From positions 744,001 to 808,000 of the forward strand of contig JAHBVX010000002.1 in the NCBI GenBank assembly GCA_019637295.1: a stretch of 64,000 nt of DNA, in the 5' to 3' direction. Positions 27,807 to 37,810 of this stretch are shown piece after piece. This DNA is from Polyangiaceae bacterium (lineage in GTDB: Bacteria; Myxococcota_A; Polyangia; Polyangiales; Polyangiaceae). Under the pieces are notes generated by a model. It was not told the origin of the DNA, searched no databases, and was given only the letters and a program-made list of their open reading frames with translations. Within the stretch, counting starts at the first letter, position 1. Each line of letters begins with the position of its first letter. The position numbers and the translations under genes are program-made.

Positions 27807-28610
27807 TCACGCCCGTGGCGCCAGCCACGCCAGCATTCGCGCCGAGAGCTCGCCCCAGATCAGCGCGGCGAGCACCCACCAGAGCGCGATCCACAGCGGC
27901 ACGCCGAAGAGCCAGCCCAGGTGATAGGCGTGCAGGTTGCCCACCCGGATGTAGAGCACCTCGACCGCCGGGCCCAGGGAGGCGAAGGCGACGAGGACCC
28001 ACAGGCGCCGGCGCTCCGGTCGGAGCAGCAGCAGACAGACGGCGATGGCCAGGGCGAAGGGCAGCCAGGACCAGAGCGGATCGAGGTAGGTGCGATAGAT
28101 GGCCTGGCGCGTCGCGAGCACGACCGCGAGCATGAGCCCGACCCGCAGGAGCACCCCTCCGGGCAGCGGTCGGCGCAGCACCAGCGCGTCGCGCGCGGCG
28201 GGGACGGCGAGCCGCGTCCAGCGGAACAGCGACGAGACGTAGCGGAGGATCAAGCCCCAGTACAGCAGCATCCACAGCGGAATGAGCGACAGCTCCGGGA
28301 GCTCGACGGGCACCGTGTAGTCGTAGATGCGGTGGCGGGTGACGCTGTTCCAGTCGTTGACCGCGCCGAGCAGGGTGCAGACGGCGAAGAACAGCCCCTC
28401 CTGGCGGAGCGACAGATCGCGCTCGGTGGCGGGCAGCTTCGCGAACAAGGCCAGCCGTCCGACCAGGATGCCCAGGGTGATGAGGGTCATGGTCGCCAGC
28501 TGCTGTGAGAAGGCGCAGATGGCCACGCTCGAGAGCGCCACGCAGGCGCTGTCCAAGAGGAACTGACGATCGCCGACCGACGGCGCACGCGCGGCGCTCG
28601 AACGCGTCAC
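27807..28610 (-). CDS. Integral membrane protein, uncharacterised
   Basis: A 267-residue inner-membrane protein with about seven or eight hydrophobic segments: SACVALSSVAICAF, TLITLGILVGRLALF, LFFAVCTLLGAV, LIPLWMLLYWGLIL, VGLMLAVVLA, LPFALAIAVCLLLL, LWVLVAFASLGPAV and IALWWVLAALIW. The pattern GPAVEVLYIRVGNLHAYHLGWLFGVPLWIALWW resembles predicted carotenoid- or isoprenoid-linked membrane proteins with a GxLxE(x)n PLWxP motif, but I cannot name the family. The GTG at 28610 overlaps the TGA of the radical SAM gene (GTGA), so translation is coupled; the frame is open further upstream but that part lies inside the SAM gene. Third gene of the TetR-controlled operon. Confidence 0.7.
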   Translation of the reverse strand: MTRSSAARAPSVGDRQFLLDSACVALSSVAICAFSQQLATMTLITLGILVGRLALFAKLPATERDLSLRQEGLFFAVCTLLGAVNDWNSVTRHRIYDYTVPVELPELSLIPLWMLLYWGLILRYVSSLFRWTRLAVPAARDALVLRRPLPGGVLLRVGLMLAVVLATRQAIYRTYLDPLWSWLPFALAIAVCLLLLRPERRRLWVLVAFASLGPAVEVLYIRVGNLHAYHLGWLFGVPLWIALWWVLAALIWGELSARMLAWLAPRA

Positions 28611-29791
28611 GCGACGAAGCTCCAGGCCGCGCGCAGGAGCGAGAGCGGGCGAGCGAGCCCGTGCGCGTACTCGTCGGTCGTGTAGTTCTGAGCCCAGTTG
28701 CAGTTCGCGCCGCACTGGTTCTTGGCTGGGCCGTGAAAGCCAGTGGGGCTGACGCGCTCGCAGGCGCTCGCGTACAGCGCGTCGACGTGGTCGAAGTCCA
28801 GCACGCTGATGTACTCTGGCTTCACGTTCACGCTGGCCTTGCAGGGCCACACCAGTCGCCCGTCGTGGTCCACGTGGGGCTTGAGAGTGTTCCTGCAGTC
28901 GAGGGGCTCGGAGCGCAGGAGCCGCTCGTTCATGCGCAGCGAGCCGCTGATGGCTTGTCCGGCGCGCTTGCGCGCGAGGATCTCGTCGACCAGCGCGCGA
29001 TACTCCGGGTCATCGTGCAGCGAGGGGTCGACGCTCGGACCCACGTTCTGCGGCACCGGACAGAAGCCGATCCCGAGGTCGCGGGCGAAATCGAGCACGT
29101 CGCGGGCGTGCCGCACCCGGCCCGGCAGGATCACGGTGTTGACCATCAGCTTGAAGCCGAGGGTCTGCGAGAGGTCATGGAGCATGAACAGGTTGGCGAT
29201 GACGTTGCCGGGCTCGGGAGTCACCCACAGCTTGCGCAGGTAGGCTTCGTCGAGCGAGTCCAAGCTGACGACGAGGATGTCGATGTCCGCGAGGAAGGTC
29301 CGCCACTCGGGCTTCTCGAGCAGCTGATGAAAGAGGCTGCCGTTGGTGTTCACGACGATGGGGTGGTAGTCGAGGGCCTTGGCGGCGCGGACCAGGCGGG
29401 GAAGATCCTTGCGCAGGGTGGGCTCGCCGCCGGCGAAGTACACGCTGGGCGTGCGGGTCCGCATGATCTCGAGCAGGCGGATGCCCTGCTCGGTGTCGAG
29501 CTTTCCCTTCCCGCTCAGCTCGGGGTACTTGGCGCCCTGGTGGTCGTCACAGTAGCTGCAGCGGAAGTTGCATGGCCGCAGCGTGGTCCAGATGAAGTAC
29601 AGCGGCAGCAGATCTTCGCGGCCGGCGCGGGTGCGGCGACGGTTCTCGAGGTAGTTCTGGCTGGCGGTGCTCCAGGCGCGGGCGCGACGCCGAAGCTCCC
29701 GCGATCGGGGCGCGCGGCCCGCCAAGCTGGGCGCGAGCCGGCGCGCGAGGGAGCTGCCTTGTCGTTTCAGATGTTGCAGACGGGGTTGCAT
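28607..29791 (-). CDS. Radical SAM protein with C-terminal Cys cluster
   Basis: A 394-residue radical SAM enzyme: CNFRCSYC with Cys74, Cys78 and Cys81 binds the SAM 4Fe-4S cluster. GGEPTLRKDLPRL is the SAM-binding GGE motif, and NTNGSLFHQL and VSLDSLDEAYL complete the barrel. Near the C-terminus PCKASVNV and NQCGANCNWAQ supply further Cys that could bind a SPASM/auxiliary-like cluster. Basic Arg-rich N-terminal 60 residues precede the core. The product is unknown; substrates for related enzymes include peptides and isoprenoids such as hopanoids. A GAGAGGAG ribosome site precedes the ATG. It is 13 bases downstream of the TetR gene and overlaps the membrane-protein gene. Confidence 0.85.
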   Translation of the reverse strand: MQPRLQHLKRQGSSLARRLAPSLAGRAPRSRELRRRARAWSTASQNYLENRRRTRAGREDLLPLYFIWTTLRPCNFRCSYCDDHQGAKYPELSGKGKLDTEQGIRLLEIMRTRTPSVYFAGGEPTLRKDLPRLVRAAKALDYHPIVVNTNGSLFHQLLEKPEWRTFLADIDILVVSLDSLDEAYLRKLWVTPEPGNVIANLFMLHDLSQTLGFKLMVNTVILPGRVRHARDVLDFARDLGIGFCPVPQNVGPSVDPSLHDDPEYRALVDEILARKRAGQAISGSLRMNERLLRSEPLDCRNTLKPHVDHDGRLVWPCKASVNVKPEYISVLDFDHVDALYASACERVSPTGFHGPAKNQCGANCNWAQNYTTDEYAHGLARPLSLLRAAWSFVA

Positions 29792-35445: not shown

Positions 35446-36318
35446 TCATGCGCTGTGTTCCTGCGCGTCGTGGGCTAGCGCAGCGGCGAGCAGATCCGCG
35501 ACCGCGCTCAGCGGTGGAGCGGCCCCGGGCGACGGCTTGCGCGCCTCGGGCGAGAGCGCCACTTCGTAGCCGGTTCCCCAGCGCGTGACGAAGAAGCCGT
35601 CGCGCCGCAGCTGGTCGAGGTTTCGTTGAACGGAGGGGGCGGTCAGCATGGCTTCGTTCATGGCCACGACCAGGAGCACCGGGACCCGCGCCGCCACCGC
35701 GATGGCAGAAACCAAAGAAGAACAATCGCCGGCGGCGATGCGGGCGAGCGTCGTGGCCGTGGCGGGATAGACGACCACCGCCTCCGCCCAGCTCGCGAGG
35801 GCCAGATGAGGAACCGGCTCCGTGGCGTGCTGGGGCCAGAGCGACGTGGCCACGGCATGGTGCGTGAGCGCCGACAGCGCCAAAGGCTGGAAGAAGCGCA
35901 GCGCGCTGTCCGTCGCGGCGCAGCGCACGACGGCACCACGCCGCTGCAGGAGCTCCGTGAGCGCAGGGGCGTGCGCGGCCACGAAGCCGCCGCACAGGGC
36001 GAGCAGGAGGCGGCGCCCGTGCAAGGCACCTTTGGGCGCCGTGCCCGCGGGCCCTGTCGTCACGACGCCGGCGGCGCGCAAGGCCGTCAGGGCGTCCTGA
36101 ACCGCCGATGACTCCTCGGCGCGCTGACCGGAGAGCGCGCTGAGGTGCGCCATCAGCTCGTCGTGGGTGCGGGGCTCACGTAGGTGGTCGACCAACTCGC
36201 GCACGAGAGCAGCGCTGTCGCCGTCCGCGCGCCACACGCTTCCGTCTTCACTCACCAGCCCGACCGAATCGCCCCGTTCGTACAGTCGAACCAGCGGCGC
36301 GCGGTAGAGCCGTGTCAT
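35446..36318 (-). CDS. PqqD-like domain fused to an HFCD flavoprotein decarboxylase
   Basis: A 290-residue two-domain protein. Residues about 8-88 (GLVSEDGSVWRADGDSAALVRELVDHL...AVQDALTALRAAGVV) follow the PqqD-like winged-helix (RiPP recognition element) pattern. Residues 100-270 match the HFCD family of CoaC/EpiD: LLLALCGGFVAAHAPALTELL, the catalytic-type histidine His171 in PVPHLALASWAE, PATATT at 185-190 (canonical PATANT/PASANT) and MNEAML at 220-225 (canonical MNxxMW), then VQRNLDQLRRDG. Such FMN enzymes oxidatively decarboxylate cysteine at a C-terminus. The Asn-to-Thr change at 189 may alter activity. The ATG overlaps the upstream TGA (TGATG), coupling it to the peptide ending in Cys-Cys. 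Confidence 0.7.
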   Translation of the reverse strand: MTRLYRAPLVRLYERGDSVGLVSEDGSVWRADGDSAALVRELVDHLREPRTHDELMAHLSALSGQRAEESSAVQDALTALRAAGVVTTGPAGTAPKGALHGRRLLLALCGGFVAAHAPALTELLQRRGAVVRCAATDSALRFFQPLALSALTHHAVATSLWPQHATEPVPHLALASWAEAVVVYPATATTLARIAAGDCSSLVSAIAVAARVPVLLVVAMNEAMLTAPSVQRNLDQLRRDGFFVTRWGTGYEVALSPEARKPSPGAAPPLSAVADLLAAALAHDAQEHSA

Positions 36319-36575
36319 CAGCAGCAGCCGGCTCCGACGAACGCGGCACCGGACGCCAGCTCGCTCGGCTCTCCGCAGCCGGTGCTGGTCCTCGGTTCAC
36401 CGGCGTCCTCGCCAGCGTCGCTGGCCGCGTCGGCGCCGGCATCCGCGGGATCCGAGCCAGCCACGTGAGTGTCCGGGCCCTCCGCCCAATCCGCCAGGGC
36501 AGCGGGGGCACCCGTCAGCACCGTCAAGGCAAACGCCGGAGGCAGATAGAGACGCGACGCTCGGCGCAGGTTCAT
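36318..36575 (-). CDS. Small exported peptide ending in Cys-Cys, candidate precursor
   Basis: An 85-residue protein. The N-terminus (RRASRLYLPPAFALTVLTGAPAALA) is a signal peptide with paired arginines that could be Sec or Tat type; cleavage near residue 27. The middle is Asp/Ala/Gly-rich (about 36-60) and the end reads TGCGEPSELASGAAFVGAGCC, with Cys67, Cys84 and Cys85, the last two being the C-terminus. The stop overlaps the flavoprotein ATG (TGATG). Because HFCD enzymes act on C-terminal cysteine, this is a candidate substrate. No Shine-Dalgarno is seen before the ATG. It could alternatively be an ordinary small secreted protein; homologues with the same C-terminus would decide. Confidence 0.6.
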   Translation of the reverse strand: MNLRRASRLYLPPAFALTVLTGAPAALADWAEGPDTHVAGSDPADAGADAASDAGEDAGEPRTSTGCGEPSELASGAAFVGAGCC

Positions 36576-36729: not shown

Positions 36730-37810
36730 TCAAAGCCGTGGCGGTCTCGCGATGCGGCGGACGGTTGCGAAGTTTACGTCCTTGCCAGTCGTGGCGAAGT
36801 AGACATCCTTGTCCGTTACGGCAATGCCACGAAAGCTCGACGACATGCGCTTTCCGTCGAGCTGGTCCTTCACGACCAGGAACTCGTCTCCGCCGGCGGC
36901 CGGTATGCGAATGATGCGGTTGGACCGCGCGAAGAACACCTCGTCGCCCGAGACGGCCACGGCGCTGGCGGGGCCGGCCGCGAGCTGTCGCGGCTGGGAC
37001 TCGTCCTTGCCGAGGCGGTACACGCCGCCGCCTGCGTCCTTGCCCCTCGGCCCGCTGGATGCCCAGTAGACGTTGCCACCGGCTGAGGCGATGGCGCGCA
37101 GACCGTCGTCGCTCGCGAGCGTCCTGATGTCGCCCCCTTCGACCGGCATGGCCTGCACCTCGGCGAGATCCGACGTCGCGTCCTTGGTGAGCACGGCCCA
37201 GTACAGCGTCGTTCCGTCGGTCGCGAAGGACCCGGAGAGGACGCGCTCGACGGTTGCGAGTCTCACGATTCGTCCTCGCGCAATCGTCGAGCGCACGAGC
37301 TCGCAGGTGCCGTGGTGCTCGCCGGGCGGGGCATCCTTCGGCGCGGGAACGCCCTCCCTGCATCCGTACAGATGCGTGCCATCGCTCGCTTCCGGAGCGA
37401 AAGTACGCTTGTGGGAAGCGGATGAGGTCTTTCCGCCGTCGAACAGGACCCGCCACGTCTCCTTCGAACTGCCCGAGCCGATGAGATAGAGCGAAGCCTG
37501 GTCGTACGCGGTGATCTTGTACGCGTAGAGATCGTTCGCCACGACTTCGACGGCCGCGCAGCGACCTTGGTCGCAATAGCTCTGTTCGCATGCCTTGTCG
37601 CACGCGCCGCAGTGCTGTGGGTCGGTGGCGACTTCGGTGCAGCGTGGGTAGCCAGGCCCACACGCCATCGCATGAGGGCTTTCCGCTGGCGCTCGCCGAC
37701 GGCGTCGATGTCGTCGTGGCAGTGGCCGTGGGTGCTGCGTCCTGGCTCGACTCCCGACACGAGCACAGCGCGACGATGGCAAGGATCGTCGCAAACCTTC
37801 CGTTCGCCAT
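36730..37810 (-). pseudogene. Frameshifted lipoprotein with beta-propeller body
   Basis: The start (ATG 37810) encodes a lipoprotein signal, RFATILAIVALCSC, then a Thr/Ser/Ala linker through GKPS in one frame. About 130 bases in, the homologous continuation HAMACGPGYPRCTEVATDPQHCGACDKAC is in another frame. The latter runs to the stop at 36730 with propeller-like strands (LYLIGSGSSKETWRVLFDGG, ATDGTTLYWAVL, ASAGGNVYWASSG, AVSGDEVFFARSN, VTDKDVYFATTGK). CxxxYPRC...DPQHCGACDKAC is a widespread myxobacterial lipoprotein N-domain. A single indel near 37670 restores one 350-residue frame, so this is either real inactivation or a sequencing error. The 154 bases between it and the peptide gene hold no gene. 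Confidence 0.6.

Follow-up and report, generated by a model that had tools for sequence, protein, structure and literature searches.

On balance, we favour reading the gene pair described here as a cysteine-type member of a family of peptide-maturation systems in the Myxococcota, in which the usual substrate would be a peptide with a C-terminal selenocysteine (Sec), and we set out this reading below as a model of five steps. The pair lies in the window, by which we mean the whole stretch of 64,000 nucleotides that was analysed (G000:C12:744001-808000 of the 7.65 Mb genome of a Polyangiaceae bacterium), and its features are collected in Table 1.

Table 1. Features of the peptide gene and the enzyme gene, in positions of the window
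Feature	Position	Strand	Basis
85-aa exported precursor peptide, C-terminal Cys84-Cys85	36318..36575	-	ORF call; TGA stop 36318-36320
Signal-region motif LYLPPAFALTV, proposed leader	36519..36551	-	Alignments A2/A3; motif common to Sec-type peptides
Cys84-Cys85 codons, proposed modification site, in place of the relatives' C-terminal Sec	36321..36326	-	Sequence
290-aa fusion enzyme, RRE-like + HFCD, without methyltransferase domain	35446..36318	-	ORF, Pfam, alignment
PqqD/RRE-like N-terminal domain, residues 1-88	36055..36318	-	AlphaFold model: beta strands, then three helices
HFCD flavoprotein domain, residues 100-283	35470..36021	-	Pfam; PDB sequence matches; structural alignment

The gene pair and its flavoprotein enzyme

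The overlap of the two genes at TGATG and the 85-residue peptide ending in Cys84-Cys85, both described in an earlier note on this DNA, were confirmed on the minus strand. The peptide (MNLRRASRLYLPPAFALTVLTG...GAAFVGAGCC, 85 aa) matched no Pfam or NCBIfam family, and a search of viral contigs returned no relatives of it. Its pairing with the enzyme is not a matter of chance, because contig C79 of a congeneric genome (G077) has the identical gene order, with a peptide that is 58% identical to that of the window and also ends in GAGCC. The gene upstream of the peptide (36730-37810, minus strand) is apparently frameshifted, one frame beginning like a lipoprotein (MANGRFATILAIVALCSC) and another holding a Cys-rich, repeat-like body. 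Elsewhere in the window, at 28607-29791 (minus strand), a protein that by eye is radical-SAM-like (CNFRCSYC) is encoded close to a multi-pass membrane protein; no link between it and the gene pair was seen.

Assignment of the enzyme to the EpiD/CoaC family of flavoproteins was borne out. Pfam Flavoprotein (PF02441) matches residues 103-237 of the 290-aa protein (E 7e-20), the three marks cited in the earlier note (His171, PATATT and MNEAML) are all present, and H171, PA-x-x-TT and MN-x-x-M are kept in the alignment of the enzyme family. Matches in a PDB sequence search include SpaF, TvaF, MrsD and EpiD. Since window residues 169-241 match EpiD 65-137 at equal length, with a constant offset of 104, H171 falls on EpiD H67 and N221 on EpiD N117; both are invariant in alignments A1 and A7, and the window enzyme has another residue where PxMN has its Pro. 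PDB entry 1g5q is EpiD H67N with the substrate DSYTC. The AlphaFold model of the window enzyme (mean pLDDT 83.5) has N-terminal strands and three helices followed by the HFCD domain, and the predicted fold of the latter is that of an HFCD protein, its VIA-align neighbours being CoaBC and TvaF (both Z 21.9; rmsd to TvaF 1.7 over 160 residues), MrsD and SpaF (20.7) and EpiD (19.0-19.2).

With CoaC/CoaBC phosphopantothenoylcysteine decarboxylases the window enzyme shares the HFCD fold and a near sequence score, but it is without the CoaB part, as the earlier note had stated. The CoaBC, CoaC and CypD models match it, all under their cut-offs, and the CoaBC model is aligned over its positions 1-147 of 392 only, which indicates that a CoaB part is absent; the other HFCD gene of the genome (G000:C12:516121-516540) lies within a longer frame of 436 aa. 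We take C175 of AtHAL3a to be the reductive Cys of the CoaC-type substrate clamp. A C175 mutant of AtHAL3a is named in PDB titles, and the window enzyme, with no Cys after residue 199, has no counterpart of the reductive Cys of CoaC. For want of both the CoaB part and this Cys, we rejected CoA biosynthesis as the role of the enzyme. The likeness to the LanD/HFCD decarboxylases (EpiD, MrsD, TvaF, SpaF, CypD) extends to the fold, to the equivalents of His67 and Asn117 and, in the window, to a proposed substrate residue that is likewise a C-terminal Cys. The differences lie in the fusion to an RRE-like domain and, in most members, to a methyltransferase as well, in a substrate residue that would mostly be Sec, and in a precursor that is exported and lipoprotein-like; nor did any lanthionine or thioamide enzyme recur in the neighbourhoods that were compared.

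The PqqD-like N-terminal domain proposed in the earlier note is plausible as a predicted fold, in that the model agrees with the RRE/PqqD domains of RiPP enzymes in its beta strands and three N-terminal helices (block pLDDT 61-86), but Pfam PqqD matches only 2 of 14 family members, under the cut-off (best E 0.016), and the window sequence is under the Pfam threshold. One weak row in the structural comparison of the whole window model is TigE (Z 8.0, 88 residues aligned over the range 1 to 287, the first aligned residue being 1), and for this domain a PDB profile search gave nothing relevant. A further difference from RRE/PqqD domains is that the proposed ligand here is part of a signal peptide.

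HFCD matches were found in 171 of the 183 genomes of the window's order, mostly to the HFCD part alone and within frames at least about 400 aa long, which are presumably CoaBC; 12 copies in 11 of the genomes also match from the N-terminus. Drawn from the genomes of the order, a sample of the phylum and named genomes (the best 80 of 525 relatives), and less five duplicates, the enzyme family comprises at least 21 loci, all within the window's phylum, to which the G genomes belong; the named-genome loci come from MAGs labelled Myxococcales, Nannocystaceae, Polyangiaceae, Myxococcaceae, Kofleriaceae or Deltaproteobacteria. The sequence of L048 starts within the enzyme, that of L043 stops 52 bases beyond it and that of L045 is cut within it. 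Complete copies other than that of the window have about 470-513 aa and consist of the N-terminal domain, the HFCD domain and a class I methyltransferase, the last recognised by Pfam scan in 7 copies and by alignment or profile coverage in the others. The window enzyme ends directly after the HFCD domain, and among the loci listed only it and one copy in the congener are without the methyltransferase. The pairing of enzyme and peptide in the earlier note was right in outline, but the copy on which it was based lacks a C-terminal domain of the usual enzyme. On contig C81 the congener G077 carries a complete copy with all three domains. In its second, methyltransferase-less copy, on C79 (L033 6579-7396), the HFCD region has a frameshift with a short gap that breaks the enzyme, representing either a pseudogene or an assembly error, and the Cys-Cys peptide is intact.

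When ORFs within 7 kb of the 21 loci were compared by recurrence, no other neighbour family recurred beyond four loci (close relatives) and no LanB, LanC or LanM was a recurrent neighbour; kinase-like ORFs recur beside three loci. The model of a full-length relative (L046) has a pTM of 0.46, and its domain arrangement is untrustworthy. The nearest folds to its methyltransferase are a Methanosarcina methyltransferase, a heterocyclic toxin methyltransferase and the echinomycin disulfide-to-thioacetal methyltransferase; halide and thiopurine methyltransferases are also among the neighbours, as are N-, O- and C-methyltransferases, a mixture by which the methyl acceptor is not fixed by structure. 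Thiol methyltransferase 1 is among the sequence matches of the domain.

Peptide ends, stop codons and SECIS-like hairpins

The adjacency of peptide and fusion enzyme holds in 12 of the 21 loci listed (11 with the small exported peptide upstream on the same strand and one, L040, with it downstream), but no peptide is adjacent in seven (L032, L037, L039, L041, L042, L153 and L155); none was seen in L043 and L048, whose flanks are cut. The linked peptides have in common an R/K-rich N-terminus, an L-x-[LIV]-P-x-x-L-x-V stretch in the signal region, the Pro of which is invariant in all 17 segments of alignment A3, and mostly a lipobox, the remainder being hypervariable. From the signal motif and the lipobox we infer export of the lipoprotein type, with the signal region doubling as a leader. 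The Tat twin-Arg consensus is S/T-R-R-x-F-L-K. Two adjacent Arg residues are indeed present in the signal of the window peptide, as the earlier note had it, but MNLRRASRLYL is without the consensus and most relatives have a lipobox Cys; Tat export, which that note had entertained, was rejected.

In the standard code, Cys-Cys ends are confined among the linked peptides to the window and G077:C79, and the others end in SS, NS, FT, VV, MD, II, VT or IA. The penultimate residue is unconserved and many of the tails are Cys-rich. In three genomes that have the enzyme without an adjacent peptide (G005, G006 and G007) we found five unlinked small lipoproteins bearing the motif, with standard-code ends of GFC in three, CAIA in one and LVC in one. 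The earlier note had looked to conservation of the C-terminal cysteines among homologues; most linked peptides have no C-terminal Cys in standard translation, and the Cys-Cys C-terminus was rejected as a conserved feature of the family.

Because C-terminal Cys was so infrequent, the 3' ends and stop codons were inspected. Apart from the Cys-Cys peptides, each of the 11 linked peptides listed was found to end in a TGA with another stop directly behind it and a hairpin after that, as were four of the five unlinked peptides. The hairpin loop starts at +19 to +23 from the T of the TGA, on a stem of 6-8 bp, and usually reads GGTC(T). A Sec-type end of this kind is present within the window's own genus, at G077:C81. 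Two peptides ending in Cys, L033 and L171, have neither the second stop nor the hairpin. The latter (L171, about 1007-1360) is a leader-bearing small lipoprotein that ends in CLVC, with a TGA, no second stop and no SECIS, and is possibly another cysteine-type precursor. In the window, the second TGA after the stop derives from the enzyme gene, whose ATG start overlaps the peptide gene, and the 3' end of the peptide gene has no hairpin that passes the bacterial SECIS (bSECIS) criteria and no match at the peptide to our SECIS model, R1; Sec in the window peptide itself is thus unsupported and was rejected.

Several comparisons bear on whether these hairpins are SECIS elements. By the bSECIS criteria of a published model, as given in PMC13188914, all 15 Sec-type ends pass and none of the three Cys-type ends does (window, L033, L171). 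Of 677 other TGA+stop sites in high-GC loci, a background that retains some SECIS-found family members, 119 pass as well, and the criteria are therefore loose when used alone. Covariation was assessed in 8 of 16 hairpins, picked for an equal 4-base GGTC loop and aligned by sequence only. In this set 98.2% of cells are paired, 13 cells are double-changed, and double changes occur at five of the seven pairs; none of 500 shuffles matched these hairpins on paired or double-changed cells, 12 and 15 of 500 did so on two coarser counts, and only 36-41% of cells were paired when the alignment was slid. As a positive control, formate dehydrogenases carrying an in-frame TGA gave 11 rows in enzyme-bearing genomes. 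One of these, from the window's genome, was left out; the 10 that were read, which form two homologous groups, all have a peptide-type stem and, at +21, a loop of GGTCT (nine rows) or GGGCT (one row). Among 550 TGA+stop sites in high-GC loci, 13 have a hairpin of at least 6 bp with a GGTC loop and all 13 are members of the peptide family; one of them, uncovered by its hairpin alone, is a previously unseen tandem peptide at L050 that has the leader motif.

Rfam, run on 10 loci, called no family for the peptide hairpins and placed SECIS_3 on one of two formate dehydrogenase controls, under the gathering score. A match to MIR8788, also under the gathering score, at L164 (1635-1792) falls on sequence that looks repetitive, downstream of a peptide of the Sec type, and is probably spurious. 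The tandem Sec-type peptides of L157 (6591-6633 and 6828-6870, genome G422) have the hairpin loops CGTGC and CGGGC, not GGTC, and these are perhaps matched by a diverged SelB.

By their endings, then, the peptides of the relatives almost certainly terminate in a UGA-encoded C-terminal Sec. The lack of a conserved Cys in standard translation would have counted against the earlier proposal, yet the proposal is rescued because the linked peptides end in a TGA, a stop and a SECIS-like hairpin and so most probably in C-terminal Sec.

Selenocysteine machinery and dispersed peptides

SelB exceeded its cut-off in all 11 enzyme-bearing genomes of the order and in 43 of the 172 others (Fisher p 7e-7, uncorrected for relatedness). 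The tRNA-Sec model RF01852 exceeded its gathering score in each of the 16 enzyme-bearing genomes searched, and the anticodon was TCA in six of six loci scanned; RF01852 exceeds the cut-off in 5 of 14 control genomes too, so that tRNA-Sec calls made without ARAGORN are not fully specific. The window's genome has SelA, SelB and tRNA-Sec.

R1 matches at E 0.02 or better lay at a plausible exported ORF in 13 of the 16 enzyme-bearing genomes, against 1 of 20 SelB-bearing enzyme-less genomes that were hand-chosen out of 43 (p 3e-6); without the five training genomes the figures are 8 of 11 against 1 of 20 (p 2e-4). The 41 R1 rows in enzyme-bearing genomes consisted of 10 known peptides, 29 rows that were read and 2 unread. 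Reading gave 13 plausible exported ORFs (two cut at contig ends) and 16 implausible ones; the 23 rows at E 0.02 or better are all known or read, and 20 are plausible. For the control genomes the best 10 of 33 rows were read, covering all 3 at E 0.02 or better, and 1 was plausible. The genome listing of R1 is incomplete, as the two linked peptides of G422 are absent from it though they score 21-24 bits directly. In G009 and the window's genome the R1 search found no SECIS-terminated peptide, the single match in the latter (E 0.37) not being at an ORF end.

The leader pattern, which like the lipoprotein pattern was composed after family members had been seen, occurs in 10 of 12 SECIS-found proteins and in 3 of 198 control lipoprotein N-termini (209 N-termini, 14 with the motif, from which 11 that were family members or A2-selected had been removed). 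This test omits L183 and L198/L219, whose N-termini are cut, as well as L212; it includes L222, which belongs to a genome without the enzyme. Some start codons are unsettled. L196 and L206 are SECIS-terminated without the leader motif, and the two L157 peptides deviate from it, with R in place of the first L. Taken together, the R1 enrichment and the leader enrichment tie two separate features, the SECIS and the signal motif, to the enzyme.

L222 (G004:C463:4361-4402) is a SECIS-terminated, leader-bearing protein in a genome with no enzyme detected; that genome is 76% complete and is congeneric with the enzyme-bearing G003. L206 (G169:C207) and L212 (G007:C4) are larger proteins with repeated R-N-x-IYAR segments, which we take to be YARHG-like; in both, the C-terminal MNGA precedes a TGA, another stop and a hairpin resembling a SECIS.

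Proposed maturation and alternative explanations

In the model that we favour, the relatives would read the TGA, with the second stop and SECIS behind it, to make an exported (lipo)protein chain ending in Sec, a step to which the comparisons above point, and in the window, where the SECIS is absent, the Cys-Cys end would be a cysteine replacement of Sec. While the peptide is still cytoplasmic, the signal-region stretch L-x-[LIV]-P-x-x-L-x-V may act as a leader to which the RRE-like domain binds. The HFCD domain, by its fold and catalytic residues, would then oxidatively decarboxylate the C-terminal Cys or Sec with a loss of 46 Da to give an enethiol or eneselenol. The class I methyltransferase that Sec-type enzymes carry as a fused domain would methylate the selenium, for a net change of -32 Da, and in the window's Cys version this step may have been lost. 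The modified peptide would finally be exported and its leader removed by signal peptidase, members with a lipobox becoming membrane-anchored.

That the enzyme acts on the C-terminal Sec (Cys85 in the window) is quite probable, because enzyme and Sec-type peptides co-occur, the active site is of the EpiD type, Cys replaces Sec, and the methyltransferase-less copies are the Cys-type copies; on that footing the decarboxylation idea of the earlier note appears to survive in a wider form. For methylation of the selenium by Sec-type enzymes the chances seem slightly better than even. The two copies without the methyltransferase are exactly the two linked Cys-type copies (window and G077:C79), but as this link is seen in a single genus, and its second member is frameshifted, it probably reflects one event. 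We put forward more tentatively, at somewhat less than an even chance, a genome-wide system in which one three-domain enzyme would recognise a motif within signal peptides and turn the C-terminal Sec of many dispersed exported lipoproteins into a decarboxylated, methyl-capped organoselenium tail, the window being a reversion to cysteine. The function of such a protected, soft-donor tail in metal binding or envelope redox defence is a guess.

Could the C-terminal Sec or Cys serve as such, with no enzyme-dependent change at the C-terminus? A precedent exists in SaoC (NF040734), a selenoprotein family listed in PMC13188914 that, by its name and motif (CU, Cys-Cys-COOH), has Cys-Sec or Cys-Cys at the extreme C-terminus as the peptides here would, and for whose Sec that paper suggests a metal-ligand role, which the Cys-rich tails of many of our peptides would suit. 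Yet NF040734 was unmatched in the 10 peptides scanned (NCBIfam, E up to 5, HMMER filters on), and the word flavoprotein is absent from PMC13188914, which lists the Sao families. In addition, no further protein family among the neighbouring ORFs compared recurs beyond four loci, the catalytic residues of EpiD are kept and the SECIS-terminated peptides track the enzyme in trans, and we therefore regard an unmodified, SaoC-like end as unlikely. Also listed among selenoproteins is a Sec-containing bacteriocin, selenobacteriocin (TIGR04081); it is given an SGUG motif with two Sec, whereas our peptides would have a single C-terminal Sec and have no SGUG at their ends. Searches of the literature found no system combining C-terminal Sec with an HFCD enzyme, although an earlier description in Haft and Tolstoy (2025) or Haft and Gwadz (2023) is possible.

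The remaining alternatives concern the hairpins. EpiD-like chemistry on Cys alone, with the relatives' hairpins irrelevant, would account for the Cys-Cys peptides that adjoin the HFCD fusion in the window and its congener, but it leaves most linked peptides with no C-terminal Cys and disregards the agreement of the hairpins with SECIS in position, loop and covariation, making it very unlikely. Slightly less credible still is a selenium sensor, in which UGA, stop and SECIS would couple translation of the enzyme to the selenium supply and the peptide would matter little: the peptide lies immediately upstream of the enzyme in 11 loci, in line with a sensor, but Sec-type peptides also occur on other contigs, far from the enzyme, and downstream of it in L040, and peptides that keep a signal motif while their tails are hypervariable look more like precursors. 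As many loci have a GC-rich hairpin between the two genes, transcription terminators or attenuators must be considered too. We think this extremely improbable, for no T-run follows in the sequences inspected, the loop and its distance from the TGA are the same as at the in-frame UGAs of formate dehydrogenase, unlinked peptides carry the hairpin too, and in each of the 15 Sec-type ends listed a second stop comes after the TGA.

If the maturation model on C-terminal Sec or Cys is true, it would reveal selenoproteins that standard gene calling misses, since their sole Sec stands at the very end of the chain and the called gene stops a codon short of it, and with them a class of selenium-containing peptides that has a dedicated enzyme. 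HFCD enzymes are, to our knowledge, known with Cys substrates only, and we know of none previously found to act on selenium; the family would thus extend HFCD chemistry to that element. Sec would here be a chemical handle instead of a catalytic redox residue, an unusual new use of selenium, and the signal peptide would serve also as a leader of the RiPP type. The window and its congener would record a natural switch from Sec to Cys within one genus, coupled with loss of the methyltransferase, in a modification pathway otherwise dedicated to genetically encoded selenocysteine.
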